64,000 bases of DNA from Flavobacteriales bacterium (GTDB lineage Bacteria > Bacteroidota > Bacteroidia > Flavobacteriales > Flavobacteriaceae), in assembly GCA_011524905.1 (NCBI GenBank), contig WTJI01000048.1, forward strand, positions 1 through 64,000, in the 5' to 3' direction. Position numbers and translations under genes: made by a program. The notes beneath the pieces are model-generated. The model was not told the origin of the DNA. It searched no databases and was given only the letters and a program-made list of their open reading frames with translations. Of this stretch, positions 1 through 26,194 are shown one piece after another. How positions within the stretch are numbered: the stretch's first letter is position 1; each line of letters begins with the position of its first letter.

Positions 1-399
1 ACCCAAGGCGAGCATGTAAAAGCCGAGGCTTTTTTATCGGTTTGTCAACAAATGCAAGCCAAATTCCCTAAGGCTAAAAAAATTATCACAACACTACGTG
101 GTTCTATATCTGCCTCGCACAATACTTGGGCGGGCGTTTTGTATGATGGTGAAACAATGTTCAAAAGTAATGAATATCAAATCACACATATTGTTGATCG
201 TGTTGGTGGAGGTGATTCCTTTATGGGGGCTTTGATTTATGGTTTAATCCACTATCCTAATGACGATCAAAGAGCCCTTGACTATGCTGTGGCAGCTTCC
301 TGTTTAAAGCATACTATTAAAGGTGACGCCAACTTGGTGACCATTCCAGAAATTGAAAAATTAATGAGTGGCGATGCTTCAGGGCGGGTTGCCAGATAA
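1..399 (+). CDS. kdgK: PfkB-family sugar kinase, probable 2-dehydro-3-deoxygluconokinase (3' part)
   Basis: This is the C-terminal part of a ribokinase-like (PfkB) kinase; the frame is open from base 1 and the start lies outside the window. The PfkB signature is visible as VGGGDSFMGALIYGL at about bases 211-255, with the anion-hole glycines and the catalytic Asp. The gene ends in TAATG, sharing one base with the KDPG aldolase start. That pairing suggests the substrate is 2-keto-3-deoxygluconate, phosphorylated to KDPG for the aldolase, as in uronate/alginate or gluconate degradation. The substrate call is an inference from the neighbour; the family call is secure. Confidence 0.85.
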   Translation, partial: TQGEHVKAEAFLSVCQQMQAKFPKAKKIITTLRGSISASHNTWAGVLYDGETMFKSNEYQITHIVDRVGGGDSFMGALIYGLIHYPNDDQRALDYAVAASCLKHTIKGDANLVTIPEIEKLMSGDASGRVAR

Positions 400-1076
400 T
401 GATTATGGGACAGTATTCACGTATCGAAGTCGTTCAACAAATGGAAACATCGGGGATGGTTCCATTATTTTTTCATTCTGATATAACAACAGCGAAAGCT
501 GTTCTAAAAGCCTGTTACGATGGTGGTGCCCGGCTGATGGAATTTACCAACAGAGGGGATTTTGCCATTGAAGTATTTAAGGTATTGATCCAATATGCTC
601 AAGCTGATCTTCCAGGAATGATCCTTGGTGTTGGTTCCGTTACTGACGCTGCGGCTGCCTCTCAATATATGCTTTACGGTGCTAATTTTGTTGTAACTCC
701 AGTGTTTAGGGAAGATATTGCCATAGTTTGTAACCGAAGAAAAGTCCTTTGGTCTCCTGGCTGTGGTTCACTTTCAGAAATTGCGCGAGCAGAAGAAATG
801 GGATGTGAACTGGTCAAGCTCTTTCCAGGAAGTATTTATGGGCCAGAATTTGTTAAAGCGATTAAAGGTCCGCAACCCTGGACTTCAATTATGCCTACTG
901 GTGGGGTTTCTATGGAAGAATCCAACCTTAGGGGATGGTTTGAAGCCGGTGTGACTTGCGTAGGGATGGGCTCAAAATTGATTAGTAAAGAATTACTAGT
1001 AAACAAAGATTATAATCAATTGACCCACAACGTTAACAAAACATTACAACTCATTAAAAAAATAAGAAATGTGTAA
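399..1076 (+). CDS. eda: KDPG/KHG aldolase (bifunctional 4-hydroxy-2-oxoglutarate / 2-dehydro-3-deoxyphosphogluconate aldolase)
   Basis: This class I aldolase splits 2-keto-3-deoxy-6-phosphogluconate into pyruvate and glyceraldehyde-3-phosphate. The 225-residue length fits the family. Visible signatures are MEFTNRG, holding the conserved catalytic Glu of the TIM barrel, SPGCGSLSEI, and VKLFPGS, holding the Schiff-base Lys. The first ATG (399) overlaps the kinase stop by one base; a second in-frame ATG follows at 405 and could also be used. The kinase and aldolase form the last two steps of the 2-keto-3-deoxygluconate route. A terminator follows at 1126. Confidence 0.93.
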   Translation: MIMGQYSRIEVVQQMETSGMVPLFFHSDITTAKAVLKACYDGGARLMEFTNRGDFAIEVFKVLIQYAQADLPGMILGVGSVTDAAAASQYMLYGANFVVTPVFREDIAIVCNRRKVLWSPGCGSLSEIARAEEMGCELVKLFPGSIYGPEFVKAIKGPQPWTSIMPTGGVSMEESNLRGWFEAGVTCVGMGSKLISKELLVNKDYNQLTHNVNKTLQLIKKIRNV

Positions 1077-2032: not shown

Positions 2033-3334
2033 CTATTTACTTTTTATAAATACCTCACGAGCTCTTTGATCTTCTTTACTTTTTCTGACTTCAATCAATG
2101 CCTCGATTCGAGTTTCTGCTTTTATTTTTTGATTGAGTAAAAGAATCAATTTGCGGGTTTTTACTTTGATGGTTTCAAAGTTTAGGTTTTTATCAAAATA
2201 AGTTCCAATGGTTTTAAATGATACAGCATTAGGGTATTCTTTAAGAAGGTCGTCTATAAGCTGGATTTCATTTTTGGAAAGAATTTGAATTTTTTGATTT
2301 CTGAAATGAATCAAAACAGATCGATTGTTGCGTTTACTTTGCCGGAACAAATAATAGATCAATAGGATTACCGCAAGAAAAAGTACTAGAAATAAAACTT
2401 GTACGGCAAGGGATTTGTCTTTAACTAGAATATTTCCCGATTGTAATTTTTTGGAAAACAAATATTCTTGTTTTACTCGAATTAGTTCGAGGGTGTTTCC
2501 ATTGCTCTGAGAAAGAATGAAGTAGGTTTTTCCAATTTTTTGCATACCTCTAAGTTTGGATTTGATTGAGGTAATATCTTGAAACTCCTCCCATGTGTTA
2601 TTTTCAAAGTCAATTAACAGCGTGGTGTCAAAAGATGTTCTGGCATAATACTGATTGCCGATGTTGTAAAAATGATTGATTTTATTCTTGAAGGCATCCA
2701 AAAAATCATAGCTGCCAAGCTGTTTCCATTGTCTGGTTACAAAGGAAAACCCCCATATATCTGGTTTTAAGATATTATTGGTTTGAGTTCCATAGTCAGC
2801 CTCCCCATAGAGTCCGGCAATAAGGAGTTGATCTTTGGTTATTGCAAAAAACTCTGGTGCCGCATTCGGCGGCTTAATTTTGTTATTGGAACTATAAGGG
2901 TAGTATTCCCAAGTGTTTAGGTTAGAATCATAAAAAATGAGATCATTTTTGTGAGAGAAATTACCATAGCCGCCAAATTGATATATTGTATCCTGACGGA
3001 TAAAAGAAGCTGATTGGAAAAAAGACTGCTCCATATTGGGTTTGTCTACAATTTTTTCAAACTGATACTCATGATTCATCTTGAAAAGGGTTCCCCCCCC
3101 TGCAATTTGAAAAATAGAATCCTCTATTATTCGTAGATCTTTTTTTTCAAAGCGATCTGTTTGATGCTTCTTAATTTCACCTTTTGTTAAAATATATACA
3201 CTGTCGTCAACAAAAAAATGAATCTCATTTGATATTCGATGAAAATCATAGTTATTATAATCGGAAACGGATAGAATAATCTCCTGTCCAAAGCCTATGA
3301 ATGGCAAGCAAAATAGGAAAATGCGTAATCTCAA
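2033..3334 (-). CDS. Membrane-spanning kelch-propeller protein with cytoplasmic, possibly DNA-binding, tail
   Basis: The 433 residues read as a signal peptide (1-16, ending GFGQ), an extracytoplasmic region of about 290 residues with kelch-like beta-propeller features (for example IYQFGGYGN), one strongly hydrophobic segment at about 308-330 followed by RQSKRNNR, and a cytoplasmic tail. The tail (about 343-405) contains LSKNEIQLIDDLL and FETIKVKTRKLI, which look like the helices of a winged-helix or LuxR-like domain. I infer a one-component transmembrane regulator sensing something outside the membrane; no family match was tested. It is divergent from the DUF1800 operon across 83 bases. The reading frame opens with TTG and no ATG fits, so the start is uncertain. 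Confidence 0.75.
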   Translation of the reverse strand: MRLRIFLFCLPFIGFGQEIILSVSDYNNYDFHRISNEIHFFVDDSVYILTKGEIKKHQTDRFEKKDLRIIEDSIFQIAGGGTLFKMNHEYQFEKIVDKPNMEQSFFQSASFIRQDTIYQFGGYGNFSHKNDLIFYDSNLNTWEYYPYSSNNKIKPPNAAPEFFAITKDQLLIAGLYGEADYGTQTNNILKPDIWGFSFVTRQWKQLGSYDFLDAFKNKINHFYNIGNQYYARTSFDTTLLIDFENNTWEEFQDITSIKSKLRGMQKIGKTYFILSQSNGNTLELIRVKQEYLFSKKLQSGNILVKDKSLAVQVLFLVLFLAVILLIYYLFRQSKRNNRSVLIHFRNQKIQILSKNEIQLIDDLLKEYPNAVSFKTIGTYFDKNLNFETIKVKTRKLILLLNQKIKAETRIEALIEVRKSKEDQRAREVFIKSK

Positions 3335-3403
3335 AATAGGAAGTGTTTTGGGTAATATACTAATTATGTAGTGTAATTTATATCTTACTGCGTAAATTTA
3401 AAT
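3331..3403. promoter_or_regulatory. Putative shared control element, copy A (kelch / DUF1800 divergent promoter)
   Basis: This AT-rich interval holds, in order on the plus strand: TCAAAATAGGA, 8 bases, GGGTAAT (3350-3356), 3 bases, CTAATT, 26 bases, GTAAATTTAAAT (3392-3403). The same blocks recur in the same order and nearly the same spacing at 8668-8741, upstream of the Rieske gene. It occupies the whole gap between the divergent kelch and DUF1800 genes, so it probably carries promoters and an operator. No exact TAnnTTTG is present here. Confidence 0.5.
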
Positions 3404-3417
3404 CAAGAATTTAAGTG

Positions 3418-5256
3418 ATGAAGAACCAAAACTTGCAACTCGATTTGGTCAAAATGTTCTATGATCAAGAAATCGATCATAAAACGCTTGAAATTGCTCT
3501 TGATCAAAGACAGAAAACGGCTAAACAAATTACAAATTTGAGTTTGGCACCCTACCAAGGCGATTTTGATGAATCAGCTCAAAAGCACTTGCTTAATCGC
3601 GTATTGGTTGGTTACAGCAAAAAGCACCTAGACGATATAGCAGGCTTATCGCTTTCTGAATCTCTAGACCTCATCTTCACAGCAGAGGAGTTACAGGAGC
3701 CGGTGAATTTGTATTATTGGAAAATGAACGCTTCCCAATACCAGGAGCGTTACGAATCTGAAGATGTTGGACCCAATGAACCTTTCATCAATAGAACCTA
3801 CCGGCCGCTTCGTCCTACTTTTGAGGAACAATTTGGGCAAGAGCGTAATCGTTCTGTGAAGTCTATCGTCTACGATGGCATGTATCGCCAGCAAACCTCC
3901 ATTCATTGGAAGCTATTTTTATTTCTACATAATTTGGTGCCTACACGCGCCTTTGACACCATAGGGCACAAAGGGGGGTACAACTACATTAAGCTCTTAT
4001 TTGATTCTTGTTTTGGGAACTATAAAGACTTTATCTATAATATCACATTAGATGGGTCAATGTTAATTTTTCTAAATCTGGCCTTAAGTCAAAAAGATAC
4101 ACCAGATGAAAATTATGCTAGAGAGGTGCAAGAGCTTTTTACTGTTGGCAAGCGACCTTTTGCCCAGTTTACTGAGGATGATGTTCGTGAAATCGCACGT
4201 GCTCTAGTAGGCTGGAACTATGACTATGACAGCATTGTATATAAAGCTGGCCACGAAAATATTCCTATGTTCCAAGAGTGGAACCACGATACAGGTGATA
4301 AGTTTTTCTCTAGTTTTTACAACAACAAAGTGATTCGTGGAAAAGAAGGACCTGAGGGGGCCGAAGAGCTACAAGAAGTCATCGACATGCTTTTTGAAAC
4401 TGATGAGAGTGCCATTTATATTGCTCGAAGACTGTATCAATTTTTTGTGTACCCTGTTACTACAGCTGAAATAGAAGAACAGATCATCAAACCACTATCA
4501 GTTCTTTTTAAAGACAATAATTATTCACTTATAGTTCCATTAAAAGTATTGTTGCAGAGCGAACATTTTTATGATGTTCACTTACGACATTCACAAATCA
4601 AATCCCCAATTGAGTTTCTCAATGGTATATTTAAGTCCCTAGACTTTTTATCGGGTTTTCCACAATATTGGGATGGAAGTAACGAATGGCTGGGTAATTT
4701 TGAGCCCGATTTTTTCACTGACCAAGAGAAAGACCTTTCTTGGTACAAATACCGTTATACCAACGAGATGAGTTGGCGTTCCTCCAACATGGGAATGGAT
4801 ATACTCAATCCTCCCAGTGTATCGGGTTGGCCTGCCTATTACCAAGAACCAGTTTATGACTTGTTTTGGATTAATTCTTCGACAATAAAAGCACGAAACG
4901 ACATTCAAGGGGTAATCAAATGGGGGATGTGGCTCAATATTGAAAGAGATCCTAATCAGTATACCAACCTACGATATGATTTTCACGCCTTTTTAAATTC
5001 ATTTTCAAACCCGAAAAATATTTCATTATTCATTGATGAATTATTGGCGCGTTTTGTCACTTTGTCCGTACCAACAATTACAAAAACACGCATACGAAAC
5101 GCTTTGATTAACGACATAGACGCCATGCATTGGGAAGAACTTGCCACAAAAATATTGGATCAGAATGCAGAACCTTGGGAGTATAATAATCTTCACTATC
5201 GGGTTTCAGATGCTATTGCCAGTATCATAATTTTAGGAGAATTTCAATTGCAATAA
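3418..5256 (+). CDS. DUF1800 domain-containing protein
   Basis: DUF1800 proteins are large, mostly helical proteins of unknown activity that are often encoded beside DUF1501 proteins, as here (2 bases between genes). Family features include QKHLLNRVLVGYS near the start, the REVQELFTVGK and FTEDDVREIARALVGW region in the middle, and ILNPPSVSGWPAYY towards the end. The protein is 612 residues if the ATG at 3418 is used; a GTG lies one codon earlier. Unusually, no signal peptide is visible, whereas its partner has a twin-arginine-type leader. It may therefore stay in the cytoplasm or be exported together with the partner. Confidence 0.88.
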   Translation: MKNQNLQLDLVKMFYDQEIDHKTLEIALDQRQKTAKQITNLSLAPYQGDFDESAQKHLLNRVLVGYSKKHLDDIAGLSLSESLDLIFTAEELQEPVNLYYWKMNASQYQERYESEDVGPNEPFINRTYRPLRPTFEEQFGQERNRSVKSIVYDGMYRQQTSIHWKLFLFLHNLVPTRAFDTIGHKGGYNYIKLLFDSCFGNYKDFIYNITLDGSMLIFLNLALSQKDTPDENYAREVQELFTVGKRPFAQFTEDDVREIARALVGWNYDYDSIVYKAGHENIPMFQEWNHDTGDKFFSSFYNNKVIRGKEGPEGAEELQEVIDMLFETDESAIYIARRLYQFFVYPVTTAEIEEQIIKPLSVLFKDNNYSLIVPLKVLLQSEHFYDVHLRHSQIKSPIEFLNGIFKSLDFLSGFPQYWDGSNEWLGNFEPDFFTDQEKDLSWYKYRYTNEMSWRSSNMGMDILNPPSVSGWPAYYQEPVYDLFWINSSTIKARNDIQGVIKWGMWLNIERDPNQYTNLRYDFHAFLNSFSNPKNISLFIDELLARFVTLSVPTITKTRIRNALINDIDAMHWEELATKILDQNAEPWEYNNLHYRVSDAIASIIILGEFQLQ

Positions 5257-5258
5257 GA

Positions 5259-7355
5259 ATGAAGAGAAGAGATTTTTTACACAATTTAAGTCATGCTACG
5301 GCAGCTGGATTGATGCTGCCAGCCTTTGCCAGAACGATGAACCTTAGCGATTCTAATTCTTATTTAGCACAAACTTATTCTAGAGGAAAAATATTGGTTC
5401 TGATAAAACTCAATGGTGGCAATGATGGCTTGAATACAGTCATTCCACTAGATCAATTAAGTCCTCTGAGCTCAGCGAGGCCTCATGTTATTCTTCCTGA
5501 AAATAAGATTTTAAATCTCAATTCAAATGATTTGGGATTGCACCCCGAATTGACTGCTTTTCAAAACCTGTTTAATGAAGATCGTTTGAAAATCATTCAA
5601 AATGTAGGATATGATGTGCCTGATTTTTCACATTTCCGTTCTATGGATATTTGGGAGTCAGCATCGGATTACAATCAATTTATTACTTCGGGCTGGATGG
5701 GGCGCTATATCGAAAATCAACACCCCAACTATCCTGAAAGCTATCCCAACACAAATTATCCACATCCTTTATCTATCGAATTGGGCTCTCCTTCTTTGTT
5801 GTTAACCGGAAAAAAAGCATTCACGAGTTTTGTGGCTCGAGATCCTGAAAATTTTCAAGAAATCATCAATGAATTTGACAACAATTATGATACATCCTCC
5901 TATGCCGGCACCAAATTGGATTATATTCAGTTGGTAGGCAAACAGTCAAATATATACGGTGAGATTTTAAGGGATGTATACAATAATGGTCAAGCAGCCA
6001 ATGCTTTTAACAATTCAGATTTTAGTCAGCAACTGGAAATCGTCACCAAGCTGATCAGTGGCGGACTCAATACTCGGATTTATATGGTAGAACTGGGCGG
6101 TTTTGATACTCATGATACACAAGTAGATATAAATGATCATACGCTAGGTAACCACTCGGTTTTACTCAAGCAACTTAACGACGGAATTGCAGCATTTATG
6201 GCTAATATGGATGCTATTGGACGCAGTGACGACGTTTTGATGATGTCCTATTCCGAATTTGGAAGAACCATAGTGTCTAATGGGTCACGGGGGACAGATC
6301 ATGGTACTGCTGCGCCCTTATTCGTTATTGGTAATAAAGTGGATCCAAGTATTCTTGGGGATAACCCTGTCATACCAGCCAATGCCGAATGGCAAGATAA
6401 TTTGGCTACTGAATTTGATTTTCGTCAGGTTTATTCATCGGTCATGAACCAGTGGCTGACCATAAACCCGACCACAGAAGAAGATGTATTGTTTAGAAAA
6501 TTCGATCAATTACAGATAATCCAACCAAAATATATAGATACTGATGGTGACGGAGTAAGTGATGATCGTGATCAATGTAACAGTACTCCTGCTGGTTCTT
6601 TAGTTGATATAAACGGTTGCGCAATATTTTCTTTATCGCCCTCAAACTATACGATTCAATCCAATGGTGTGTCATGTCCTGGAAACAACAATGGTCGAAT
6701 TACTATCGGTGTGAGTCGAACAGATTTAGTCTACCAATTGAACATTGCTGAGATTAATGCAGACTATACCCTCGGCAGTGCCAACGAACACAGCGTTCAA
6801 ATTGACGACCTAGCTATCGGAGAGTATACTTTGGTGTTTACAGTAGATGGGGAAGATACCTACAATCAAATATTCAAGGTAGGAATACAAGAACCCGAAA
6901 CCTTTACGGCTAAAACCCACTTAAATAGAGGGACTAAAACCTTATCAGTTACAGCAGACGGATCGTCTATTTTTTATGCTATTGTCAATGGTGAGCAGCA
7001 GGAGTTTCGACAGCCCCATTTTTCTTTAATGCTAAAACCAGGTCGCAATAGTATCCAGATTAGCACTCCACAACCTTGTCAGGGCACTCATTATCAGGAG
7101 GTCTTTTTGTCGGAAAAAGTACAATTCTATCCCAATCCTGTTGAAACGGAATTAAATTTAATAATTCCAGGGACTGATACTGATGTTCAGATTGGTATTT
7201 ACAATCGTGCTGGGGTACTAGTCGAAAAAATGACCCGAACCATTCCCAGTTCTCGAGTTGTACAATTGGATGCCCAAAAACTTCGTTCGGACATCTACAT
7301 AATAAAACTAAATGGAGTAACCGTAGAAACCTCCATCAAAATACAGAAAAAATGA
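5259..7355 (+). CDS. DUF1501 protein with Tat-type leader, calcium-binding repeat and T9SS type A sorting domain
   Basis: DUF1501 is related to the sulfatase/alkaline phosphatase fold; its reaction is not established. The protein (698 residues) starts MKRRDFLHNL, a twin-arginine-type motif, followed by a short hydrophobic stretch. The DUF1501 domain spans about 40-420 (KLNGGNDGLNTVIPL, ELGGFDTHD, YSEFGRT, GTDHGTAAP). At about 427-450 comes a thrombospondin type 3-like repeat (DTDGDGVSDDRDQC), then Ig-like material, and at about 621-698 a type A sorting domain (VQFYPNPVETELNL to the end). It should cross the inner membrane by Tat and be exposed on the cell surface by T9SS. It overlaps the following lipoprotein gene by 4 bases. 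Confidence 0.9.
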   Translation: MKRRDFLHNLSHATAAGLMLPAFARTMNLSDSNSYLAQTYSRGKILVLIKLNGGNDGLNTVIPLDQLSPLSSARPHVILPENKILNLNSNDLGLHPELTAFQNLFNEDRLKIIQNVGYDVPDFSHFRSMDIWESASDYNQFITSGWMGRYIENQHPNYPESYPNTNYPHPLSIELGSPSLLLTGKKAFTSFVARDPENFQEIINEFDNNYDTSSYAGTKLDYIQLVGKQSNIYGEILRDVYNNGQAANAFNNSDFSQQLEIVTKLISGGLNTRIYMVELGGFDTHDTQVDINDHTLGNHSVLLKQLNDGIAAFMANMDAIGRSDDVLMMSYSEFGRTIVSNGSRGTDHGTAAPLFVIGNKVDPSILGDNPVIPANAEWQDNLATEFDFRQVYSSVMNQWLTINPTTEEDVLFRKFDQLQIIQPKYIDTDGDGVSDDRDQCNSTPAGSLVDINGCAIFSLSPSNYTIQSNGVSCPGNNNGRITIGVSRTDLVYQLNIAEINADYTLGSANEHSVQIDDLAIGEYTLVFTVDGEDTYNQIFKVGIQEPETFTAKTHLNRGTKTLSVTADGSSIFYAIVNGEQQEFRQPHFSLMLKPGRNSIQISTPQPCQGTHYQEVFLSEKVQFYPNPVETELNLIIPGTDTDVQIGIYNRAGVLVEKMTRTIPSSRVVQLDAQKLRSDIYIIKLNGVTVETSIKIQKK

Positions 7356-8116
7356 AGTATTCGTTAACCCTTATCCTATTGATTTTTGGATTGGTTTTGT
7401 CTTGTAGTGCAGAAGATGACGGGAGCAGTAATAATCCAACTCAAGCTTCGTCTTCTCCACAGTCAACCACCCCTGATGTGCCAGATCCTGGAAAACCCGC
7501 TTTGTCAAGTCCAACTGACAACGAAGTTTGCCAAGAAGGAGAGTTGGTAGATGCAGAACGCTCTCGGGTCAATTTTAGTTGGAATGCTGCACCAAACACC
7601 GACAGTTATGATTTAAGGGTAATTAATTTGGGAACCAATGAAATTATTGATATTGGAGGAATAACAACCACTTCAAATGAATTAACACTATTTCATGATG
7701 TTTCATACCGCTGGTATGTTACTGCTAAATCCGACGGTACCGCGGCTACCAACCAATCTGAAGTGTGGCATTTTTACTTGGCAGGTGATGGTCAAGAAAA
7801 TCAAGTACCTTTCAGTGCTGTTCCACTCTATCCTAGCCCTGGAGCAACGGTTGATGCCAGCAGTGGAACCCTAGAGTTGCAATGGGAAGGATCTGATCCC
7901 GATACCCAACAAGCATTGACTTATACTGTTTATCTGGATACACAGTTTGAAAACATACACAACCTGACCCTAGCCGCTAACGAAGACTTTATTAATCTTG
8001 AAGAGGGTCGCTTGGAAGTTGAGGTTTTAAATGAAACCACCTATTTCTGGAGAATAGAAACTTCTGATGGCATAAGCAGTTCTTTTACGCAGGTTTTCTC
8101 ATTCTACGTCAATTAA
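7352..8116 (+). CDS. Lipoprotein with fibronectin III-like domains
   Basis: The 254-residue protein has a lipoprotein signal (hydrophobic stretch then LVLSCSAEDDG, lipidated Cys at about 18) and a Ser/Thr/Pro-rich linker. Two similar domains follow, each with the W....D.D.Y and TYFWRIET / SYRWYVTAK pattern typical of fibronectin type III-like folds (about 70-145 and 150-254). The ATGA overlap with the DUF1501 gene implies translational coupling. I infer a surface or periplasmic binding partner for the DUF1800/DUF1501 pair. Its stop shares the palindrome TTAA with the convergent Rieske gene. Confidence 0.85.
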   Translation: MKYSLTLILLIFGLVLSCSAEDDGSSNNPTQASSSPQSTTPDVPDPGKPALSSPTDNEVCQEGELVDAERSRVNFSWNAAPNTDSYDLRVINLGTNEIIDIGGITTTSNELTLFHDVSYRWYVTAKSDGTAATNQSEVWHFYLAGDGQENQVPFSAVPLYPSPGATVDASSGTLELQWEGSDPDTQQALTYTVYLDTQFENIHNLTLAANEDFINLEEGRLEVEVLNETTYFWRIETSDGISSSFTQVFSFYVN

Positions 8117-8622
8117 CTTGACAAATCAATAGTAACGATATCTTTGTTCCGCTCGGTAGGATATTGTTTGAGTTGCCCCGAGTTTCTACCAGAGCTGCAA
8201 CCCGAAAATCCATTGAGACCGCTTGTGCCATAACTGTTACCATGATTCCCGCAACGAAATTTTGATCCGTCATAACTCCACTGGTTGATTGTTCCAAGAT
8301 GGGGACAACAGTTACTATTGGCAACGATTTCTTCAACAGACTTTCTCAAAATTAAAATGTAGTGTTCCAAATCATTAACAAACTCACCAACTGTTTGAAG
8401 TTGACTATATTTTTCGTGTGTCAGATCAATGGATAATGTTTTCCCTTCAAGATGAAATCCAGTTTCTTTTGTTTTATTTTTTAAGTCAAGGTAGGCGAGT
8501 TCTGCTTCGCTTAACTCAGGGGCTACAAATTCTGTCTCTTTACAGGCGATAAATAGGCTGGGAGTTATTGCCAATAGGCCAAAACCAGATTGAAACAATC
8601 CTAAAAATCTTGATCGATTCAA
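8113..8622 (-). CDS. Small Rieske [2Fe-2S] lipoprotein
   Basis: The protein has 169 residues. Residues 1-26 form a signal with lipobox LFIAC (Cys27), so it is probably membrane-anchored. The Rieske cluster ligands are clear: C106-P-H108 and C124-G-N-H127, in CPHLG and RCGNHG, with 15 residues between the two motifs. The tail keeps the usual Gly-rich and LKQYP ending of the domain. This is an electron-transfer protein whose partner is unknown. The frame starts with TTG at 8622; an ATG five bases upstream is out of frame and closes at once, so a homopolymer indel or true TTG use are both possible. It is convergent with the lipoprotein gene and shares its stop palindrome. Confidence 0.85.
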   Translation of the reverse strand: MNRSRFLGLFQSGFGLLAITPSLFIACKETEFVAPELSEAELAYLDLKNKTKETGFHLEGKTLSIDLTHEKYSQLQTVGEFVNDLEHYILILRKSVEEIVANSNCCPHLGTINQWSYDGSKFRCGNHGNSYGTSGLNGFSGCSSGRNSGQLKQYPTERNKDIVTIDLSS

Positions 8623-8667
8623 AACATTTTAATTTAAGAATACGAATCCAAAATAAACAAATTATCT

Positions 8668-8741
8668 ATCAAAAATAGGATAGATATCGGGTAATGCCCT
8701 AATTTAAAATGAATACTTAACCGTATTGAGTAAATTTAAAT
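8668..8741. promoter_or_regulatory. Putative shared control element, copy B (Rieske gene upstream region)
   Basis: The plus strand reads TCAAAAATAGGA, 8 bases, GGGTAAT (8689-8695), 3 bases, CTAATT, 25 bases, GTAAATTTAAAT (8730-8741), matching copy A at 3331-3403. On the minus strand the first block contains TATTTTTG (8670-8677), an exact TAnnTTTG promoter element pointing at the Rieske gene 48 bases away. The more distal blocks then fall where an activator or the -33 region would bind. Confidence 0.5.
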
Positions 8742-16773: not shown

Positions 16774-16819
16774 TCTTACAATATTATAATTAATTTTGAG
16801 GCCAGAGTGGGACAGCCTG

Positions 16820-19800
16820 ATGAAAAAAATAGTAACCTTTACGTTATTCTTTTTATTTCCTATCGGGCTGTGGTCTCAAGATCCAGATGCAGATGGTATT
16901 CCTTCAGCAAGTGACAATTGCCCCACTGTTTTCAATCCTTTGCAAACTGATACAGATGGAGACGGCATTGGAGATATGTGTGATCCTGACGACGACGGCG
17001 ACGGTATTTTAGATGTCAATGAAGGATATTCGGTTTCTTTTGAAAACTTTGAAAGTATAGCTGCCAATACTGCTGTATCCTCTGGAACACTATCTATTTC
17101 TTCAACTGTAATTGATGCTGCTTACTGGAATTTTAATAGTAATACAGAAGGTGCAACCAAAGTAGGCACTTTTATTAGCAGCACGACTCACACAGGTAGT
17201 AATACTTTAGTATTTGATCAGAATAATAACGGTTTTCCGTCAGAAGACGAAAACATGACCTCATTGGTGAGTACACCAACCAATTTATTGACTCCAGGAG
17301 TCAGAATTCAAATAAGCGCAGATTTCAGAAATGAAAACACGGCTCAAGCTTGTTGCAACGAATATGGGGTTGTCCTATCGGCTCCCAACCAAGACCCTAT
17401 TTGGCAGGATGATGTATCTCCTGGTCAAGATGCAATTTTAGTTTATGGCTTTGGAGATGGATTGAAGCGGCATCCCAATAGCTCCTTTACTTTTAACGGC
17501 TATACCCGTGAGGCAGGATGGTTCCATCAGCAAACGACATTTTATGTCCGAACTGCTGGCGGGTCTTCTACTTTGTTTATGGACAACGCCACCTCTAAAT
17601 ACACCAGCGGGTTGACTGGAACCCAAACCGATACGTTGGTCAATTTAGGGCCCACCACGGATTATCCCTGGCTAAATAACGCTGTTGTGGGAGTGGCGGT
17701 AGATACTTTTGTCGATAATATTCGTCTGGAGACCAGCTTAGATAGTGACAATGATGGCATTCCAAATCATCTGGATACTGATAGTGATAATGATGGTTTG
17801 AGTGATGGGGATGAACAAACCATTGGTACAGATCCGAATGTATTTGAAGACAATGATTCGGATGGTATTGCAGATCATTTTGATTCAGACGATGACAATG
17901 ATGGCATATTGGATTTTTTGGAATGTGGCAATCCCAATGGTGGAATTATAAATGGCGGTTTCGAAATGAATTCAGCTTGCAATGGTCAATATTTACAAGC
18001 TAATGTGGAAGGTTGGTCAACAACAGCTTCCGATGAATTGATAGAGATTTGGTGTAGTCCTAGAACATTAGGATCGGACACTTATAGCTCCAATTCTGGA
18101 ACAAGATTTGCTGAAATAAATGCTACTCAAATAGCAGCACTTTATCAGGACATGGCTACGACCCCAAGCCAATATATGATTTGGTCCTATTCACTTCAAG
18201 GGCGATATAGTGGGGAATCTATGCGGGTTAGAGCAGGATTAACAACCTCTACGGCTGTGGCTTTAGATTCATTAAATGCAATAAAACAAGTATGGCAAAG
18301 GCAAACTGGAATCTATTTGGTTCCAAGTGGTCAAACAACTACTGTATTTCTGTTTGAATCAATCACCGGTGGGGGAACAGGTAACTTAATCGACGATATC
18401 TCCTTTGATAGGCCCGCTAATGCCTGTACTTTGGATACAGATGGCGATGGGATTCAAAACAGTTTTGATTTAGATAGTGATGGTGACGGTTTTTTAGATA
18501 GTGTCGAACTAACAGGGGACGATGATGGCGATGGGATTATGAATTTTTTAGATCCGACTGATTTTGGATTCACTGTAACGCCCACTTTCATTACTGTATC
18601 CGAGTCTCCCACTTCACAATCATTTACCGTGGTATTGGATCGGATTCCAAGCTCAGATGTTGTCTTATCACTTGTTGTGTCTGACAGTACCGAGATTAGT
18701 TTGAGCACGGCTACCCTTACGTTTACTACGAGTACTTGGTCGGCTACACAGACAGTAACAGTCACAGGGGTTGACGATGCCATTCGGGATGGAGATGTTT
18801 TGCAAGACCTTGTTATTACTGTTGTGGATAGCTTATCTGATGACAATTATGATACAGTTTCTGATACGCTAATCAGTATAAGAACTCAGGATAATGATCC
18901 AGAATTGTGTGCTACAATTCCGTTTAATGTCATGGATTTTAATTTTGTTAATAGTGCAACTTCAACACTTGCAAACGAACTTTCTTTGACACAAACAGCG
19001 ACAAGTCTTTCTGGTTCAGCTTGGTATACTCGTAGGTTTGATCTTAGAGTAGACTTTACCTTAAATTTTGAAATCTACTTAGGAGATTCAGATAATCCAG
19101 GTGCAGATGGTTTGGCTTTTGTTATTCAAAATATTGATACTGGTCAAGGCGGTTTAGGTTTGGGTATTGGTTATGGCGGCATATCCCCTTCATTTGCAAT
19201 AGAAATCGATACTTATGCCAACCAATATTGGGATCCTCCTTTTTCTGGTTCCGTAGCAACTTTTCAGGGGTATAGTCTAGATCACCTTGCCTTTGTTCCC
19301 AATGGCCAGGCTTCTTCAACAGCTTATTCGTCTGATATAAATGATGTCAACAACCTTGAAAACGATGATTGGCATGGATTAGAAATTTCCTGGAGCCCTA
19401 GCACAAATGAACTATCTTACAAACTCACCCATAGTGATTCAAGTATTTACACGGCAACAAAAACTGTTGACCTTATAAGTACCATTTTAAATAGTGATTT
19501 TGCATATTGGGGATTTACATCTGGAACTGGAGGACAATTCAATCATCACTTAGTCCGATTTACATCCTCTTCAACAATCTGCGTGGCCAACGAAATACTA
19601 CCGCCTACAGGTAGTAATACCCAAACTTTCTGCTTGGCTGATGCGCCAACACTCAATGATATTGTTTTATCGGTTGAAAATGATTCAGGCGGAATTCCCT
19701 ACAATGTGGTATGGTTTACTACTGCTTCGGGTAGTGTAAATTTACCCCTGAGCACGCCACTGGTAGAAGGAACGACCTATTATGCAGAAGCGGCTAATTT

Positions 19801-22800
19801 TTCTGATCCTAGCAATATTTATTATCGGGAAAGTGAAACTCGGATTCCAGTCCTGATCAATCTGATTGATCCCGGCATAGCGATCAGTTCTTCCACTTTG
19901 ACCCTAACAGAGGGGGGTATCAGTAAAACGATTTCTTTCGCTTTGACTGACCAACCGAGTAGTACTGTGGTAGTGAATTTGACGAGTTCCCAAGCCTCTG
20001 ATGTGACCCTCGGAACAACGAGTTTTACCTTTACTAATTCCAATTGGAATGTTTCTCAAACAGTGACACTTTCAATGGCTGACGATAGTATCGCTGAGGG
20101 TACCGAAACGGCTAGTTTAACCTTTCGTATTGTCGATGGACTGAGCGATGACTGTTACGATCCCCTGGCCGATCAAACGGTTGTTTTAACCCTTCAAGAC
20201 AATGAAATTGCTGGTTTCTTGGTCAGTACTATCAGTGGCACCCTAGCAGAAAATAATTCCGCTACGCAGACGCTGTCGATCCGGTTAAGTGTTCAGCCCA
20301 GCACAGACGTTATAATTGACCTGACCAATACCGATGCCACTGAATTGAGCCCGGATGTCGTCAGCTTGACTTTTACCGCCTTAAATTGGAACGTTTCCCA
20401 GACTGTTGTTTTGGCTTCGGTAGATGATTTTGAAACAGACGGTACCCAAACTAGCACTTTGATTTTTGAAGTTAATCCATCATCGGCTGCTTTGTTCACC
20501 AGTTTGGCGAGTCAAACGCGGTCTATTGCTACATTAGACGACGATAGTGCTGGACTATTATTGAGCCCCGTCCAGGGAACACTAACAGAAGCCAATGCGC
20601 AGACAGCAAGTTTTACAGTTGCCCTGCAATCAATCCCAACGGGAACTGTTACTGTGAATTTAAGTTTGAGTGAAGCCACCGAAGCCGCTTTGGTATCTAC
20701 TAGCCTTGTATTTGATGCTGGTAATTGGAATGTGAGTCAGACAGTGGTTTTGAATAGTGTTGATGATAGTTTATTAGATGGATCACAAAGCACTACGGTA
20801 ACCTTAGCTATTGCTCCAGGCGCCCCTTCGCTTTATGCTGCCTTACCCAGTTCTCAGGTTAGCGTAACTACCCTGGATAACGAAACAGCAGGATTCTTTG
20901 TTAGTACCATAAGCGGCACATTAACGGAAAATAATCCAACAACCCGATCTGTTGCGCTTCGATTGACAGTTGCTCCCACTGCTGATGTAATTTTTGATTT
21001 GATTAATGGCGATACAACTGAAGTAAGTCTTAGTGTGACCAGTTTAACATTTACACCCTCTAATTGGAACGTAACTCAAACAATAACACTTTCGGCAGTA
21101 GACGACTTTGCCACAGATGGTACTCAAACCAGTACTTTAGATTTTCAAATAAACCCTGCTTCATCTCCCTTATTTGTAGGTTTGACTAGTGTGTCACGTA
21201 CCATTGCTACACTAGATGATGACAATGCGGGTTTATTGATCTCAAGTATGCAAGGAACATTAACTGAGGCAGATACGACAACAGCTAGCTTTACAGTTTC
21301 CTTGCGATCAATTCCAGCTGGAATCGTGACACTTAGTTTGAGTTTAAGCGAAGCCACCGAAGCCGCTTTGGTATCAACCACCCTTGTTTTTGATGCTGCA
21401 AATTGGAATGTGAGCCAGACAGTTGTATTGAATAGTGTAGACGATAGTTTACTCGATGGCTCTCAAATTACAACTGTTACACTGGTTATAGCTCCAGGTG
21501 CGCCACCACTCTATGCCGCCATACCTAGTTCTCAAATTGCGGTAACGACGCTTGATAATGAAACTGCTGGTGCCATCATCAACATGGTGGATAATACAAC
21601 AGGTGAAAATGGAGATACAGGTAGTTTTACGATTCGATTAACATTTATGCCGTCGGCTGACGTAACTATTCGATTGGCATCGTCTGATTTGGGGGAGGGT
21701 AGTGTCCAATCTTCTGTAACTTTTACACCAAGCAATTGGAATATTGACAAAAATATTACGGTATATGGAGTTGATGACTCACCACCCATTGTTGACGGTG
21801 CAGAGCCATTTTCAATTATAACTGGCAATGTCATCTCTACGGATCCCTTCTATAATATTTTGGATGGTTCTACCATTTCGGATTTGGTATTTACCAATCA
21901 AAACGACGATGGGCCAGGGATTGTAGTTACAGCATTTAACAATGATTTTGCTACAGATGAGAGAGGCGATACAGCTACGCTTCAATTCGAATTACTCACC
22001 CAACCGCTTGGAGGTGCTGATGTAACAGTTCCTTTGGCTTTGGGTATAAATTCTGATGAAGTACTATTAGCAACCAACACCTTAACGATACAGAATGGGA
22101 ATTGGAATAACCCTTCGGTTAATGCCGTACTTATTACTGGTTTGGATGATAATATAGCCGATGGCGATCAAAATATAACTGTCATAACCGACTCCCCAAT
22201 ATCTTCAGACCCCCTTTACAATGGTTTGTTGGCTTCCGATGTAGCGGATCCTGTCATCACGAACAAAGACGACGAGGTTGCTGGTTTACTATTATCAGTA
22301 CCTGGAACTGTTAGTGAGGATGGACAATCAACAACACTTCTGGTTTCTTTGACAACTGATTTACTTCAAATTGTAGCGTTGAATATCACAGTTGTCGATG
22401 AAACTGAACTTGATGTGACACCCAAAACGCTCACCTTCAATACAAGCGATTGGAATGTATCAAAGCCTCTTCAAATCGTTGGGGTGGATGACCTAGAAGT
22501 GGACGGGACAGTGACTTCAAACCTAATTATATCAGTAGCACCTTCCACTACAGCGGTCAGCTATCAAACTTTGGCTGATGTCATTATCGCAGTAGCCAAT
22601 TTAGATAATGATGTCCTCGCGGAACCAACAGAAACAGTAACCAACACCCTAACTGATTCTGAATCAAACCAGCCCTCCGATTCGAGTTCTGGGAGCGAGA
22701 CCTCCGAAATTGAATCCAATCCACCTTCAGAGACAGCGACCACCACCTTGCCTACTTCCATACCTGACCCAAGTCAACTTGATGCCGCCACTTATGAAAA

Positions 22801-23101
22801 CTTAGTACGAGAGTCAATCGAGATTCCCTCTGCTTTCTCACCCAATGGCGATGGTAATAATGACGGTTGGGTCATCGAAGGAATTGAAAATTACCCCAAT
22901 AACCGCTTGGAAATTTGGAATCGTTGGGGGCTGAAGGTTTATGAAAAATCAAATTATCAAAATGAATGGATAGGGCAAACTTCTGTTGGTTTTCGGGTTG
23001 GAAGCACAGAGGTGTTACCAGAAGGAACTTATTTTTTTAAACTACTTGTTAATGATAGGGTCCTCTTTCAAGGTTATATATATCTAAAACGCGTGCAATG
23101 A
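16820..23101 (+). CDS. Giant T9SS-exported adhesin: TSP3 repeats, jelly-roll, L-type lectin, nine Calx-beta-like repeats, type B sorting domain
   Basis: The 2093-residue protein starts at ATG 16820, directly before the signal peptide ([11 protein letters not shown]). Regions in order: Asp-rich thrombospondin type 3 calcium repeats (about 22-65, again about 305-370 and 535-575); a jelly-roll carbohydrate-binding-like domain (about 375-530); one Calx-beta-like repeat (about 581-695); an L-type lectin-like domain (about 700-920, with DGLAFVIQN and AIEIDTYAN); eight more Calx-beta-like repeats (about 1018-1932); a Ser/Thr/Glu-rich linker; and a gliding-associated type B sorting domain (about 2000-2093, [16 protein letters not shown] to the end). 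It should be displayed on or released from the cell surface as a calcium-stiffened adhesin. The PorP/SprF-like gene overlaps its stop by 4 bases and is the expected partner for a type B tail. Confidence 0.92.
19871..21565 (+). repeat. Five consecutive 339-base (113-codon) tandem repeats inside the adhesin gene
   Basis: Unit starts fall at 19871, 20210, 20549, 20888 and 21227, and the next related unit starts at 21566, so the period is exactly 339 bases five times. Units 20210 and 20888 resemble each other (type [20 protein letters not shown]), as do 20549 and 21227 (type [21 protein letters not shown]). This gives an ABAB pattern with a 678-base higher-order period. A 26-base stretch at 20672-20697 is identical to 21350-21375. 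Confidence 0.9.
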
Positions 23102-24045
23102 GAAGAAAACACATCTTTTATTTAGGAATATTATTTTTGAGTTGTTTTCCTTTCTTTAGGGGCTTCAGTCAACAAGAGGCAACTTTTTCTCAGTTTATGT
23201 TTGCCCATCAGTTGTTAAATCCAGCGTACGTTGGATCAAAAATGTATACGAATGCTACTGCTCTTCATCGCGCGCAATGGTTGGGTTTTGAAGGCGCCCC
23301 TGTGACACAAGCACTTGCAGTAAATGGACGTGTTCAAGATAAACAGCTAGGCTGGGGAGTACATGTTTTGAATGACAAAATTGGACCTATAGTAAACACT
23401 GTTTTCAATATTGACGGTGCTTATCATTTGACTTTAAATGAGAAAGGGCACCAGCTGGCATTAGGTGTTAAAATGGGAATTCACAACTATAATCTCAATG
23501 CCGATTTGATCCGAACCCTCACTCCTGGTGATGTGGCTTTTGACATAGGAACTAATTTTGATATATTACCCAATATCGGATTCGGATTGTATTATCATCA
23601 GCCCAAATTTTACATGGGATTTTCCATTCCTAGAATGCTGAGCAACGATCGGTACCAGATATCTAGGCACGGTTATTTAGTAATGGGTGGTATGTTATCA
23701 ATTACTCCAGCATGGACCATCAAACCCAATATCTTATTCAAACAATCTGAGGGGTCGCCTATGGGCTTTGATTTTAGTGCACTATTAATTTATGAAGACC
23801 GTTTTTGGTTAGGGCCACAAGTGCGAAGTGCGGTAGAATCTCTTTTCCCTAATGACAGACTGGGAGGAGCCTATGGCATGATGGGGGGGATTCATCTCAA
23901 TGCGAATTGGAGTGTGGGTTATGCCTACAGCACTGGTTTGGGGGATTTAAATGCGGCCTTTAATACAGGGACTCATGAGATTATCCTTCGATTTGATTTT
24001 AATATAAAAGACCTCGCAGCGTTGCGGTCACCAAGAATATTCTAG
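23098..24045 (+). CDS. PorP/SprF-family type IX secretion protein
   Basis: A 315-residue outer-membrane barrel protein with a signal peptide (about 1-24). The family N-terminus is visible as [23 protein letters not shown], with the usual FSQ and NPAY motifs quoted here in short form, followed by alternating aromatic/glycine strands up to a C-terminal strand ending near [10 protein letters not shown]. PorP/SprF proteins attach to the type IX machinery or assist export of proteins with type B tails; they are typically encoded just after such cargo. Its ATG overlaps the adhesin stop (ATGA), implying coupled translation and a dedicated role for this adhesin. Confidence 0.92.
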
Positions 24046-24046
24046 T

Positions 24047-26194
24047 ATGAAAAAATGGGTTTTAATTGTAGTAGTTGGCTTGTGCAATCAAGGCTTTGCC
24101 CAGGTTAACAATGGGAACTGGGCAGATTATTATTTTTTTAACCAGAATTATACAAAAGCGATTGCGCAGTATGAGAAGGTATTCAATTCACTGTCTTTAA
24201 AGCAACAGCAAAATTTAGCAAGAGCTTACTTGAAGCTAGAGCAAAATGAAAAAGCCAAACTAGTTTTTCAGGAAATTGTAGATGACCCAATGGCTGATTT
24301 AGAAGATTATTTCTTGTATGCCACTTTGCTAACCGACAATCCAAAACTAGCCAATGAATATCGAGAAAAAGCCAATAAACTTCCCATTTTTTATCAAAGT
24401 TTATGGAGCGAAGACAGCCTTTTGTACAAGAAAAGATTCAGAGAAGAAAACAGCCAAACGCTCAACGCATTACGCATTAATACAGAAATGGCTGAGTTTG
24501 CACCTCTCATTATAGCCTCTGATTCGGTGCAGCAACCTGAGTTGTGGTATGTAACTGCACAAAAAATGAAGGGTGAAAAAAAGACGCTGAAACGGATTCA
24601 ATCTGATTACCCTGTTTATAATCTGGCTAAAGCCCCATTATTGACCCAACAACAGGTGGGTACACCAGAAATATTGCAATTGGGCTTGAATACTATTTTA
24701 CAAGATGGTCCTATTTCATATGATCCGCAAACACAAACCCTATATTTAACTCGATCAGCAGCACAGCCATCACCCAATAAAATCATTCATTTGGACCTTT
24801 ACAAGACCACCTATCCCCTTGTGTCTGAAAAAGTAGCTGTGCCTTTGTCGATCAATATGGAAGGTACATCGACATTACACCCAACTTTTGATGCAACCCA
24901 TCAACGTCTTTTTTTTAGTAGCGATCGTCCGGGAGGCTTTGGTGGCTTTGACTTGTATGTGGCAAAAAGAAAGCCAGATGGTAGTTTTTCTAAGCCAATA
25001 AATTTGGGGAAAGACGTCAATACACCAGCGAATGAAGTTTTCCCAAATTGGACATCGGGTCTGTTGTCTTATGCCTCAAATAGTTCAGAGGGTGTTGGTG
25101 GTTTAGATATTTGGCTAGCCGAGGAAGTGATGACCAACCGCTGGGAGCGCAGCCTTCTTGGTGCACCATATAACTCAAATAGAGATGATTTTGGATGGAC
25201 CTATCGGCAAACTTTAAAAATGGGTCTGCAAACTTCAAATCGTGAAGGCGGTCGTGGTGACGACGATCTCTACACCTTTGAGCCGCAACCTCAGCTCAAA
25301 GGAGTTGAAGATTCCTATGACTACATGGCGATAGACACTCTTGTAGTATCCAGTAGGGGCGTGCATCAAAACGATGAAGAACTGCTTCTGCAGCGTGACC
25401 CTATGCATCGTTTTTTTAAAAGACGGTATGTTTTGGAATCGCAACCCGATGGAAACTTGGTGTGGAATCAAAATGGTTCTTTTCTTTACACCAACCCGAT
25501 CATGACACTATCTCAAGATTCCTTTTACTATCGCATTGTAACTGATTATGGGCGATCGGAACCCATCAAGGTTTTGTTAACACAACAGATTCCTTCTCTT
25601 GATGACTTGCCCCGTGATGTTCAGACTACTTTCGATCCGATTTATTTTGACTACGATAGAGCTAATTTGCTGGTTCAGTACAAAGACCGCTTGGATCGTG
25701 TTGTTGCTGCCTTACGCGACTATCCAAACATGATTGTCCGGGTTAGTTCTTACACAGATAGTAGGGGAAGGGCCTCTTACAATTATAAATTATCCGAACA
25801 ACGACAAAAAACAATGATCGCTTATGTGGAACAAGCACTTGGTGAAAAAGGACGCATAGTAGGAATTGCATTTGGGGAAACCAAAGTTCCTGGAAATGAC
25901 AAACAGAATTTCGTTCTCAATGCAGGTAGTTATGGGGATAAAAAAAATGCAGAAAAAGTTGTTAAAGACCTAATCAAACTTGGACTAAAACCACAAATAT
26001 TCACTACAAAGCAATCTTTATTTCGAGTCATTGTAGGCACATATGAAAGTATGACTACTGCCCAAAAAGACCTTGCTAAATGGAAAGGAGAAATTGATTT
26101 TGAGTTGTGGATAGACGACAGTCCAGTTAACAAATTACCCGAAAGCTTTCACAGCAAACAACGTCGTGTCGAATTTGAGGTATTGACATTTTGA
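24047..26194 (+). CDS. OmpA-family protein with TPR, PD40 propeller and a SPOR-like insertion
   Basis: The 715-residue protein has a signal peptide (1-18), TPR-like helices (about 20-130), a WD40/PD40-like propeller (about 215-420, with FFSSDRPGGFGGFDLYVAKR), an Ig/cadherin-like stretch (about 425-515) and a C-terminal peptidoglycan-binding OmpA domain starting at about 529 (IYFDYDRANL, SYTDSRGRASYNYKLSEQR). The OmpA domain is interrupted: after FGETKVPGND a SPOR-like segment of about 75 residues (about 618-692, FVLNAGSYGDKKNAEK, FRVIVGTYESMTTAQ) comes before the closing QRRVEFEVL. It probably anchors the adhesin/PorP complex to the cell wall. It starts one base after the PorP/SprF stop. Confidence 0.9.
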   Translation: MKKWVLIVVVGLCNQGFAQVNNGNWADYYFFNQNYTKAIAQYEKVFNSLSLKQQQNLARAYLKLEQNEKAKLVFQEIVDDPMADLEDYFLYATLLTDNPKLANEYREKANKLPIFYQSLWSEDSLLYKKRFREENSQTLNALRINTEMAEFAPLIIASDSVQQPELWYVTAQKMKGEKKTLKRIQSDYPVYNLAKAPLLTQQQVGTPEILQLGLNTILQDGPISYDPQTQTLYLTRSAAQPSPNKIIHLDLYKTTYPLVSEKVAVPLSINMEGTSTLHPTFDATHQRLFFSSDRPGGFGGFDLYVAKRKPDGSFSKPINLGKDVNTPANEVFPNWTSGLLSYASNSSEGVGGLDIWLAEEVMTNRWERSLLGAPYNSNRDDFGWTYRQTLKMGLQTSNREGGRGDDDLYTFEPQPQLKGVEDSYDYMAIDTLVVSSRGVHQNDEELLLQRDPMHRFFKRRYVLESQPDGNLVWNQNGSFLYTNPIMTLSQDSFYYRIVTDYGRSEPIKVLLTQQIPSLDDLPRDVQTTFDPIYFDYDRANLLVQYKDRLDRVVAALRDYPNMIVRVSSYTDSRGRASYNYKLSEQRQKTMIAYVEQALGEKGRIVGIAFGETKVPGNDKQNFVLNAGSYGDKKNAEKVVKDLIKLGLKPQIFTTKQSLFRVIVGTYESMTTAQKDLAKWKGEIDFELWIDDSPVNKLPESFHSKQRRVEFEVLTF

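Follow-up and report, generated by a model that had tools for sequence, protein, structure and literature searches.

A DUF1800–DUF1501 cassette of Flavobacteriales that may encode a docked surface enzyme with a Rieske partner

Genes of the DUF1800 and DUF1501 families stand side by side in genomes of Bacteroidota, and one such pair, from a Flavobacteriales bacterium, raises the question of which neighbouring genes work with it and to what end. The stretch of DNA analysed, hereafter the window, is 64,000 nucleotides long (assembly GCA_011524905.1, contig WTJI01000048.1, positions 1–64,000), and the locus occupies its positions 2,033–8,741. There, the pair is accompanied by genes for a kelch protein, a SusE/fn3-like lipoprotein and a Rieske [2Fe-2S] lipoprotein (Table 1). 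An earlier interpretation drawn from the letters of the window (the sequence-only reading) had joined all five genes into a surface redox system, in which the two DUF proteins form an exported enzyme, the lipoprotein holds it, the Rieske protein feeds or drains electrons and the kelch protein senses the substrate. Comparison with related genomes leads to a narrower view. Thus, the Rieske, DUF1800, DUF1501 and lipoprotein genes seem, from their distribution, to form a real cassette that is either present or absent. This four-gene cassette may build a docked cell-surface enzyme complex with a Rieske electron partner, a model to which, taken whole, we give slightly less than an even chance.

The comparison covers 152 DUF1800 neighbourhoods, namely that of the window and 151 others (L032–L071, 40; L148–L167, 20; L168–L247, 80; L251–L254, 4; L256–L262, 7), with flanks mostly of 8–10 kb, shorter where contigs end, by which some neighbourhoods are truncated. 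Thirty short loci with 1.5-kb flanks (L002–L031) were left out of all counts. The counts are not independent: at least two genomes are included twice (L148/L168 and L043/L223), and several others are near relatives. In addition, loci L168–L247 were picked with the patterns P[DN]EN[YF]ARE and [QL]ELFT[VI][GL]K[RG], and the conservation of P230–~R247 in DUF1800 is partly a matter of this choice. The source genome (1.98 Mb in 63 contigs, 90% complete, with the window on contig C14) holds a single DUF1800 match in its assembly, that of the window. The family is present in 72 of 198 relatives, and no match was obtained in G001–G003, which are of the window's own genus.

The closest DUF1800 relatives found are in genus g282 (G558 and its kin G617, G619, G613 and G614), genus g306 and one metagenome-assembled genome of Cytophagaceae (L169), with 41–58% identity to the window protein in the best segments, where measured. 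A Rieske gene lies in seven of the 152 neighbourhoods (the window, L149, L163 and L251–L254), a lipoprotein gene directly follows DUF1501 in five (the window, L149, L169, L251 and L252), and a kelch gene is found in three (the window, L149 and L251). L149 belongs to G558, L251 to G619, L252 to G617, and L253 and L254 to G613 and G614. Both G558 and G619 have all five families, in the order kelch, Rieske (reverse), DUF1800, DUF1501 and lipoprotein, which differs from that of the window. G617 has the four cassette genes at a locus where kelch is missing, and G613 and G614 keep Rieske, DUF1800 and DUF1501 as a unit amid different flanking genes.

Genus g282 also provides a comparison of genomes with and without the cassette. 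The close type of DUF1800 occurs in 5 of its 12 genomes, and the DUF-linked type of Rieske protein (E ≤1.5e-46) in the same five; the remaining seven, some of them incomplete, have generic Rieske proteins only (five genomes; strongest E 1.4e-29) or none (two). The clearest case is that of G619 and G611. In the former, 5.3 kb carrying the four genes separates a kelch gene from a murF-like gene, in the latter 54 bases, and the flanks of the two genomes are 93% identical through to where kelch stops and 88% identical from the murF-like gene onward.

The Rieske tree agrees with a specific linkage. The six DUF-linked proteins form one clade (support 95/93), apart from the second Rieske protein of the source genome itself, and within it the window protein groups with those of G558, G617 and G619 (98/95). 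Having a Rieske neighbour requires two changes on the DUF1501 tree, a number that none of 500 shuffles matched. The trees of the pair place the window differently, nearer to g306 for DUF1800 (100/99) and nearer to g282 and L169 for DUF1501 (98/98), both with long branches. Since these trees disagree, the history of the cassette is not simple. The proposed tie of the Rieske protein to the DUF pair is thus borne out, by shared occurrence, by a clade of its own and by a block of four genes that comes and goes. The sequence-only reading had gone further, holding that it would fall if kelch and Rieske genes did not co-occur with the pair beyond close relatives. Here, half of the expectation stands: kelch and the DUF-linked Rieske type both recur in g282, and in the neighbourhoods examined neither was found by the pair outside one DUF1800 clade.

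A further candidate, the Rieske gene at L163, was rejected as a linked case. It groups with a generic Rieske protein (96/99) and the spacing of its second ligand pair is altered; it is a neighbour that lends no support. Separately, G619 encodes two additional proteins of the DUF-linked Rieske type that carry inserts (L268:7586-8563 and L269:17-994). InlB-like repeats are shown for the L268 copy, which precedes a 786-residue InlB-repeat protein and lies close to a 31-residue DUF1800 remnant. Generic flavobacterial Rieske lipoproteins (L099, L100 and L109–L111) were observed in small recurring clusters with genes that by eye are YceI-like, thioredoxin-like and ApbE-like.

The pair itself is far more widespread than the cassette. 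DUF1501 adjoins DUF1800 in all 40 of the loci L032–L071 and in 77 of the 80 loci L168–L247, where the three misses are contig ends. DUF1800 directly precedes DUF1501 in 146 of 148 pairs measured, at a spacing of no more than 50 nucleotides in 133 of the 146. These figures, like the pair statistics on N-termini given below, are counted without correction for relatedness. The adjacency of the two families exceeds chance. In the window, the DUF1800 protein belongs to PF08811 (214.2 bits, gathering score 26.1; E 4.7e-63) and the DUF1501 protein to PF07394 (77.6 bits, gathering score 27), a family also matched at E ≤0.001 in 60 of 60 aligned DUF1501 homologues.

To what kind of enzyme might the pair belong? 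The AlphaFold2 model of the whole DUF1501 chain has a mean pLDDT (predicted local distance difference test) of 78.2 and a pTM (predicted template modelling score) of 0.63. Its core resembles phosphodiesterase 7cba_A (VIA Z 18.4, 3.5 Å over 253 residues) and PafA (Z 17.3), and Foldseek matched the model to glycerophosphoethanolamine phosphodiesterase (E 2.2e-7). By predicted fold, DUF1501 is thus assigned to the alkaline phosphatase superfamily; the sequence-profile search returned no solved relative. Nine residues, D56, S124, H125, D283, H285, R336, D347, H348 and D387, are each found in 60 of 60 homologues, and by analogy are candidates for the metal ligands and the nucleophile. The TDHG motif would fit the pattern of this superfamily. 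Taken together, the model suggests a metallo-hydrolase-like enzyme. For DUF1800, the predicted structure is mostly helical (mean pLDDT 86.6, pTM 0.89) and found no clear match among solved structures (best Foldseek E 1.6; VIA Z ≤3.8), which does not by itself show a new fold. Its profile gave two weak matches to solved structures (best E 0.39), which we take as chance.

A second family of DUF1501 partners offers a view of DUF1800. Proteins with PSCyt1, PSCyt2 and PSD1 domains (DUF1549/DUF1553) are called planctomycete-specific in PMC5615132 and PMC2754498, and the latter puts the occurrences of PSCyt2 and of PSD1 at 41 each in one planctomycete genome. In the present phylum, PSD1 genes occur in 11 of 148 genomes. 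Twenty of 32 listed PSD1 places were fetched, and with L284 (a 4-kb contig) giving no usable gene, 19 loci remained. DUF1501 directly follows the PSD1-family gene in 16 of the 19, with RRxF at the N-terminus in 14 of the 16 and RK in two. The loci where it does not follow are L278, L279 and L287, the next gene of L287 (833 residues) not having been scanned. In two proteins, Pfam was used to check all three domains. The haem-binding-type motif CxxCH is present in 20 of 21 PSD proteins and in none of 78 DUF1800 proteins; that of the window has one cysteine in all.

Are DUF1800 and PSCyt2–PSD1 related? Pfam gave no match of the window DUF1800 to PSCyt2 or PSD1 (PF07583/PF07587) at E ≤1, and a first profile comparison with PSD1 reached 2.5% probability, against 2.1% for DUF1800 with DUF1501. 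With larger alignments, hhalign gave weak single matches (best probability 7.7%), four of which fall in collinear segments. In the first, the start of DUF1800 lies against that of PSCyt2. In the second, the FSSFYNN beside the invariant H291 lies against the AFFxN that follows CxxCHDHK, with H291 not aligned to the histidine of the motif. In the third and fourth, the LYxFF...LLxSxHF region lies against PSD1 and the C-terminal parts match. Two further matches are not collinear. Used alone, the long-type alignment gave four collinear segments and the short-type one two. The chain score, a measure of our own, was 108.9 for DUF1800 against PSCyt2–PSD1, 85.4 against an independently built PSD set and at best 42.9 against 34 other families. 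The comparison drew on 35 families from the fetched loci, one of them the second PSD set, and its null left out the two largest (166 and 156 members), taken as DUF1501 and DUF1800. For single matches, the best score was 35.0 as against 25.9 for other families, and DUF1501 against DUF1800 scored 30.2. These sequence comparisons suggest that DUF1800 is likely, but not proven, to be a haem-less distant relative of the PSCyt2–PSD1 proteins. The presence of CxxCH on DUF1501 partners in those modules supports, indirectly, a redox link of the cassette.

The strongest alternative takes the hydrolase fold at face value. The pair would then be a simple hydrolase at the surface, akin to phosphodiesterases or sulfatases, and the Rieske protein would have a separate task, such as protection against or sensing of oxidants, and pass it no electrons. 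Most DUF1800–DUF1501 pairs indeed have no Rieske neighbour, and some genomes with no DUF1800 match, G002 for example, nevertheless encode generic Rieske lipoproteins. What speaks against it is that one Rieske clade is tightly co-inherited with the pair and that the analogous DUF1501 partners bear CxxCH. We regard this alternative as somewhat unlikely, yet a serious contender.

How the pair would reach the surface is suggested by its termini. DUF1501 begins with a twin-arginine signal (MKRRDFL), of which R3 is conserved in 60 and R4 in 57 of 60 homologues. The motif RRxF[LIVMF] is found in 138 of 148 DUF1501 proteins. Among control open reading frames, it occurs in 16 of 1508 overall and in 3 of the 605 whose N-termini are hydrophobic. 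At the other end, a tail of the type IX secretion system (T9SS; E ≤0.001) is present in 56 of 60 DUF1501 proteins; that of the window, a type A C-terminal sorting domain, scores 34.0 against PF18962 (Por_Secre_tail; cut-off 27) and 24.1 against TIGR04183 (cut-off 23). TatC, of the twin-arginine translocation (Tat) system, was found in 9 of 9 genomes tested and SprA, of the T9SS, in 6 of 6, the source genome being included in both sets. The DUF1800 N-terminus is hydrophobic in only 9 of 148 pairs, that of the window not being among them, with hydrophobicity serving as a rough substitute for signal-peptide prediction. In loci L032–L037, DUF1800 has a Sec-like N-terminus of its own. In this group, a T9SS tail is missing from both DUF1501 proteins scanned (L032 and L034). 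Of the products of the next gene, a single one was scanned, that of L033, and it carries such a tail together with a weak F5/8 domain just below the cut-off. A DUF1800 that lacks a signal beside a DUF1501 with a Tat signal, together with the Sec-like N-terminus in L032–L037, argues that DUF1800 works outside the cell and usually rides on the signal of DUF1501. DUF1800 thus probably leaves the cell together with DUF1501. The proposal that the DUF proteins make an exported enzyme gains from the predicted fold, the twin-arginine signal and the T9SS tail. The tail, the signal-less DUF1800 and a possible DNA-binding tail on kelch go beyond that proposal.

The same lack of a hydrophobic N-terminus in 139 of 148 DUF1800 proteins could be read differently, together with the helical fold and the position beside a gene for a Tat-signal protein. 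Thus, DUF1800 might be a cytoplasmic Tat chaperone for DUF1501, comparable to those of the TorD type, that is never exported, leaving DUF1501 and the lipoproteins outside. The DUF1800 proteins of L032–L037, with their own Sec-like N-termini, do not fit, nor do the apparent relatives, PSCyt2–PSD1, which carry CxxCH, as haem c is attached outside the cytoplasm. Also, at 613 residues, DUF1800 far exceeds known Tat chaperones in size. We consider a chaperone role quite unlikely.

Once outside, DUF1501 may be held by the lipoprotein. Residues 426–698 of the window DUF1501 have counterparts on a GH81 glucanase with CBM6 (L267:3-6079, G613) and on a reprolysin-type protease (L269:3774-8311, G619); the region shared by the three proteins comprises 272 residues and has a T9SS end. 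In the fetched loci, to which this survey was confined, all seven distinct members of the lipoprotein family directly follow this C-terminal region (five on DUF1501, one on GH81, one on reprolysin), and five of seven distinct DUF1501 proteins with the region have the lipoprotein directly after them. The lipoprotein tracks the C-terminal region across unrelated catalytic domains and is therefore, as judged from this domain swapping, probably a surface dock for DUF1501 residues 426–698. The suggestion that the lipoprotein holds the enzyme fits this pattern, which spans three unrelated catalytic domains. By Pfam, the window lipoprotein falls below the gathering score of SusE (PF14292; 22.4 vs 25.2).

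We therefore return to the cassette as a docked surface complex, for which the following course may be envisaged. DUF1501, a metallo-hydrolase-like enzyme by its predicted fold, would carry the twin-arginine signal; DUF1800 would bind it in the cytoplasm and ride out through Tat. The T9SS tail would then take both across the outer membrane, marker genes of the two machineries being present, and at the surface the lipoprotein would dock DUF1501 by its C-terminal region. Finally, the Rieske lipoprotein may pass electrons to or from the pair, in place of the haem motifs of the PSCyt–PSD1/DUF1501 modules. This electron transfer, proposed by analogy, is the least certain step. The window protein belongs to the Rieske family (PF00355, 25.0 bits, cut-off 20.3; ligands CPH and CGNH intact), and as a bc1/b6f subunit it falls short of the NCBIfam cut-offs (21.3 vs 250; 15.9 vs 97.4).

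Several points weigh against this model. First, the Rieske gene is absent from 145 of the 152 neighbourhoods, some of which are cut by contig ends. Nine g306 genomes have the close type of pair with no adjoining Rieske gene, where Rieske genes elsewhere in these genomes were not searched for; the pair therefore does not need Rieske. The g306 pairs also have no adjoining kelch or lipoprotein gene, L150 being broken and L262 cut at a contig end on its upstream side. Second, on the DUF1800 tree a Rieske neighbour requires four changes, and 26 of 500 shuffles were as low. Third, the DUF-linked Rieske proteins (window 8113-8622, L149 and L251–L254) have RxxF or RKxF before the lipobox, in place of the RRxF of 11 of 14 relatives; the missing full twin-arginine pair fits poorly with Tat export of an Fe–S protein. 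Fourth, the alkaline phosphatase fold requires no electrons. Fifth, no lipoprotein gene adjoins DUF1501 in L253 and L254, although its C-terminal region is present there. Lastly, it is unusual for T9SS cargo to enter by Tat.

The kelch protein is better set apart. It belongs to the kelch families by Pfam (Kelch_6, 27.8 bits, cut-off 25.3; Kelch_4, 24.4, cut-off 21.6) and consists of a signal, a propeller, a single transmembrane helix and a tail that may be a winged helix. The tail of the window protein matched no Pfam family, and the profile of the family's tail gave weak matches in the PDB (the transcriptional regulator 2k4j, E 0.0076; TcaR, 0.064; unrelated kinases from 0.21). The family is found in 10 of the 12 g282 genomes, often in several copies, and six of the ten have no DUF1800 match. 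In G611, G385, G612 and G615, kelch lies beside the murF-like gene and the cassette is missing, the G615 locus being broken and partly masked. Conversely, G617 (61% complete) has the cassette without kelch at the site where G619 has it, and no kelch match elsewhere. By this double dissociation, kelch is rejected as a dedicated cassette sensor in g282. The window kelch is 22–27% identical to other kelch proteins and is placed apart from those of G558 and G619, on a tree in which few branches are well supported (118 of 500 shuffles were as low). The role of substrate sensor given to kelch by the sequence-only reading thus finds no support in g282, in view of copy number and of dissociation in both directions, and the weak tree points the same way. 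One system of all five genes with a dedicated sensor might be suggested by the kelch genes next to the cassette in the window and in G558 and G619, by the divergent arrangement of kelch and DUF1800 in the window and by the lack of both in G002 (97% complete). It is very improbable, given kelch without cassette in G611, cassette without kelch in G617, closest kelch genes on other contigs in G613 and G614, a window kelch that is not sister to the others, and differing gene orders. Kelch is probably a membrane one-component regulator that adjoins the cassette and is not its dedicated member; it would lie there by chance of position. In L095:7098-10766 (G028), a kelch homologue was observed near a gene that by eye is KDPG-aldolase-like, as in the window (399-1076), a proximity that may be old synteny independent of the cassette.

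All five open reading frames and their families, as first described, were recovered (Table 1). The DUF1800–DUF1501–lipoprotein run is as tight as had been described, with 2 bases between the first two genes and an overlap of 4 bases between the last two. The lipoprotein and Rieske genes converge and, as had been noted, share a stop palindrome, the TTAA at 8113-8116 being common to both. Kelch and DUF1800 diverge across 80 bases, and no open reading frame of at least 80 residues is listed at 8623-8741.

Table 1. Genes of the locus and parts of the DUF1501 protein, in window coordinates for genes and residue numbers for protein parts.
Feature	Location	Strand	Details
Kelch protein	3334..2033	-	TTG start, 433 aa
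DUF1800 protein	3415..5256	+	GTG start, 613 aa
DUF1501 protein	5259..7355	+	698 aa
DUF1501 parts	twin-arginine signal; core ~40-430; TSP3/Ig-like spacer; T9SS domain 624-692	+	AlphaFold2 + Pfam
SusE/fn3-like lipoprotein	7352..8116	+	254 aa
Rieske [2Fe-2S] lipoprotein	8622..8113	-	TTG start, 169 aa

Two other places in the window may be mentioned. A secreted-looking protein of 243 residues (1229-1960) with no Pfam match is 43% identical to L252:13372-14100, near the G617 cassette. At 16796-26194, a 2101-residue protein with TSP3-like repeats is followed by genes that by eye are PorP/SprF-like and TPR-like, which resembles a T9SS set of cargo and partner.

In a wider view, DUF1800 and PSCyt2–PSD1 would form one superfamily that partners Tat-exported DUF1501 in redox-coupled surface enzymes, with haem c or Rieske as the redox element, a Tat-hitchhiker and then T9SS route, and docking by a lipoprotein. 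In its full extent this view is doubtful, and we hold it as unlikely. Should these families prove to be two-part enzymes of a single kind, Tat-exported and redox-linked, one testable model would cover several large dark families. In the papers searched, as far as their text was available, no function was found for the DUF1501, DUF1800 and PSCyt/PSD families, and the accessible literature on DUF1800, DUF1501, DUF1549/DUF1553, Tat/T9SS and Rieske lipoproteins neither reported a tested function for the pair nor linked it to Rieske or T9SS. The cassette offers a natural pair of genomes with and without it, along with candidates for the electron partner and the surface dock.

Among known systems, the nearest are other DUF1800–DUF1501 gene pairs, including those in bacterial chitin synthase operons, which, according to PMC5122149, hold adjacent genes of the same two Pfam families and in which a twin-arginine motif has likewise been reported on DUF1501. 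Compared with those pairs, the set in the window adds a T9SS tail, a docking lipoprotein and a Rieske lipoprotein; no chitin synthase was noticed in the Bacteroidota neighbourhoods surveyed, where no search was aimed at one. The PSCyt1–PSCyt2–PSD1 modules share the arrangement of a large partner gene first and DUF1501 next, and differ in the CxxCH of that partner, which DUF1800 lacks. For kelch, the layout of signal, propeller, transmembrane helix and possible DNA-binding tail is like that of SusR-like and other membrane one-component regulators with periplasmic beta-propellers, with the difference that the winged-helix assignment of the window protein is weak. Finally, the order of a cargo gene and then a gene for its surface partner is that of SprB–SprF and other T9SS cargo with dedicated partners; what differs is that a SusE/fn3-like lipoprotein takes the partner's place and that the tail belongs to the Por_Secre_tail type.

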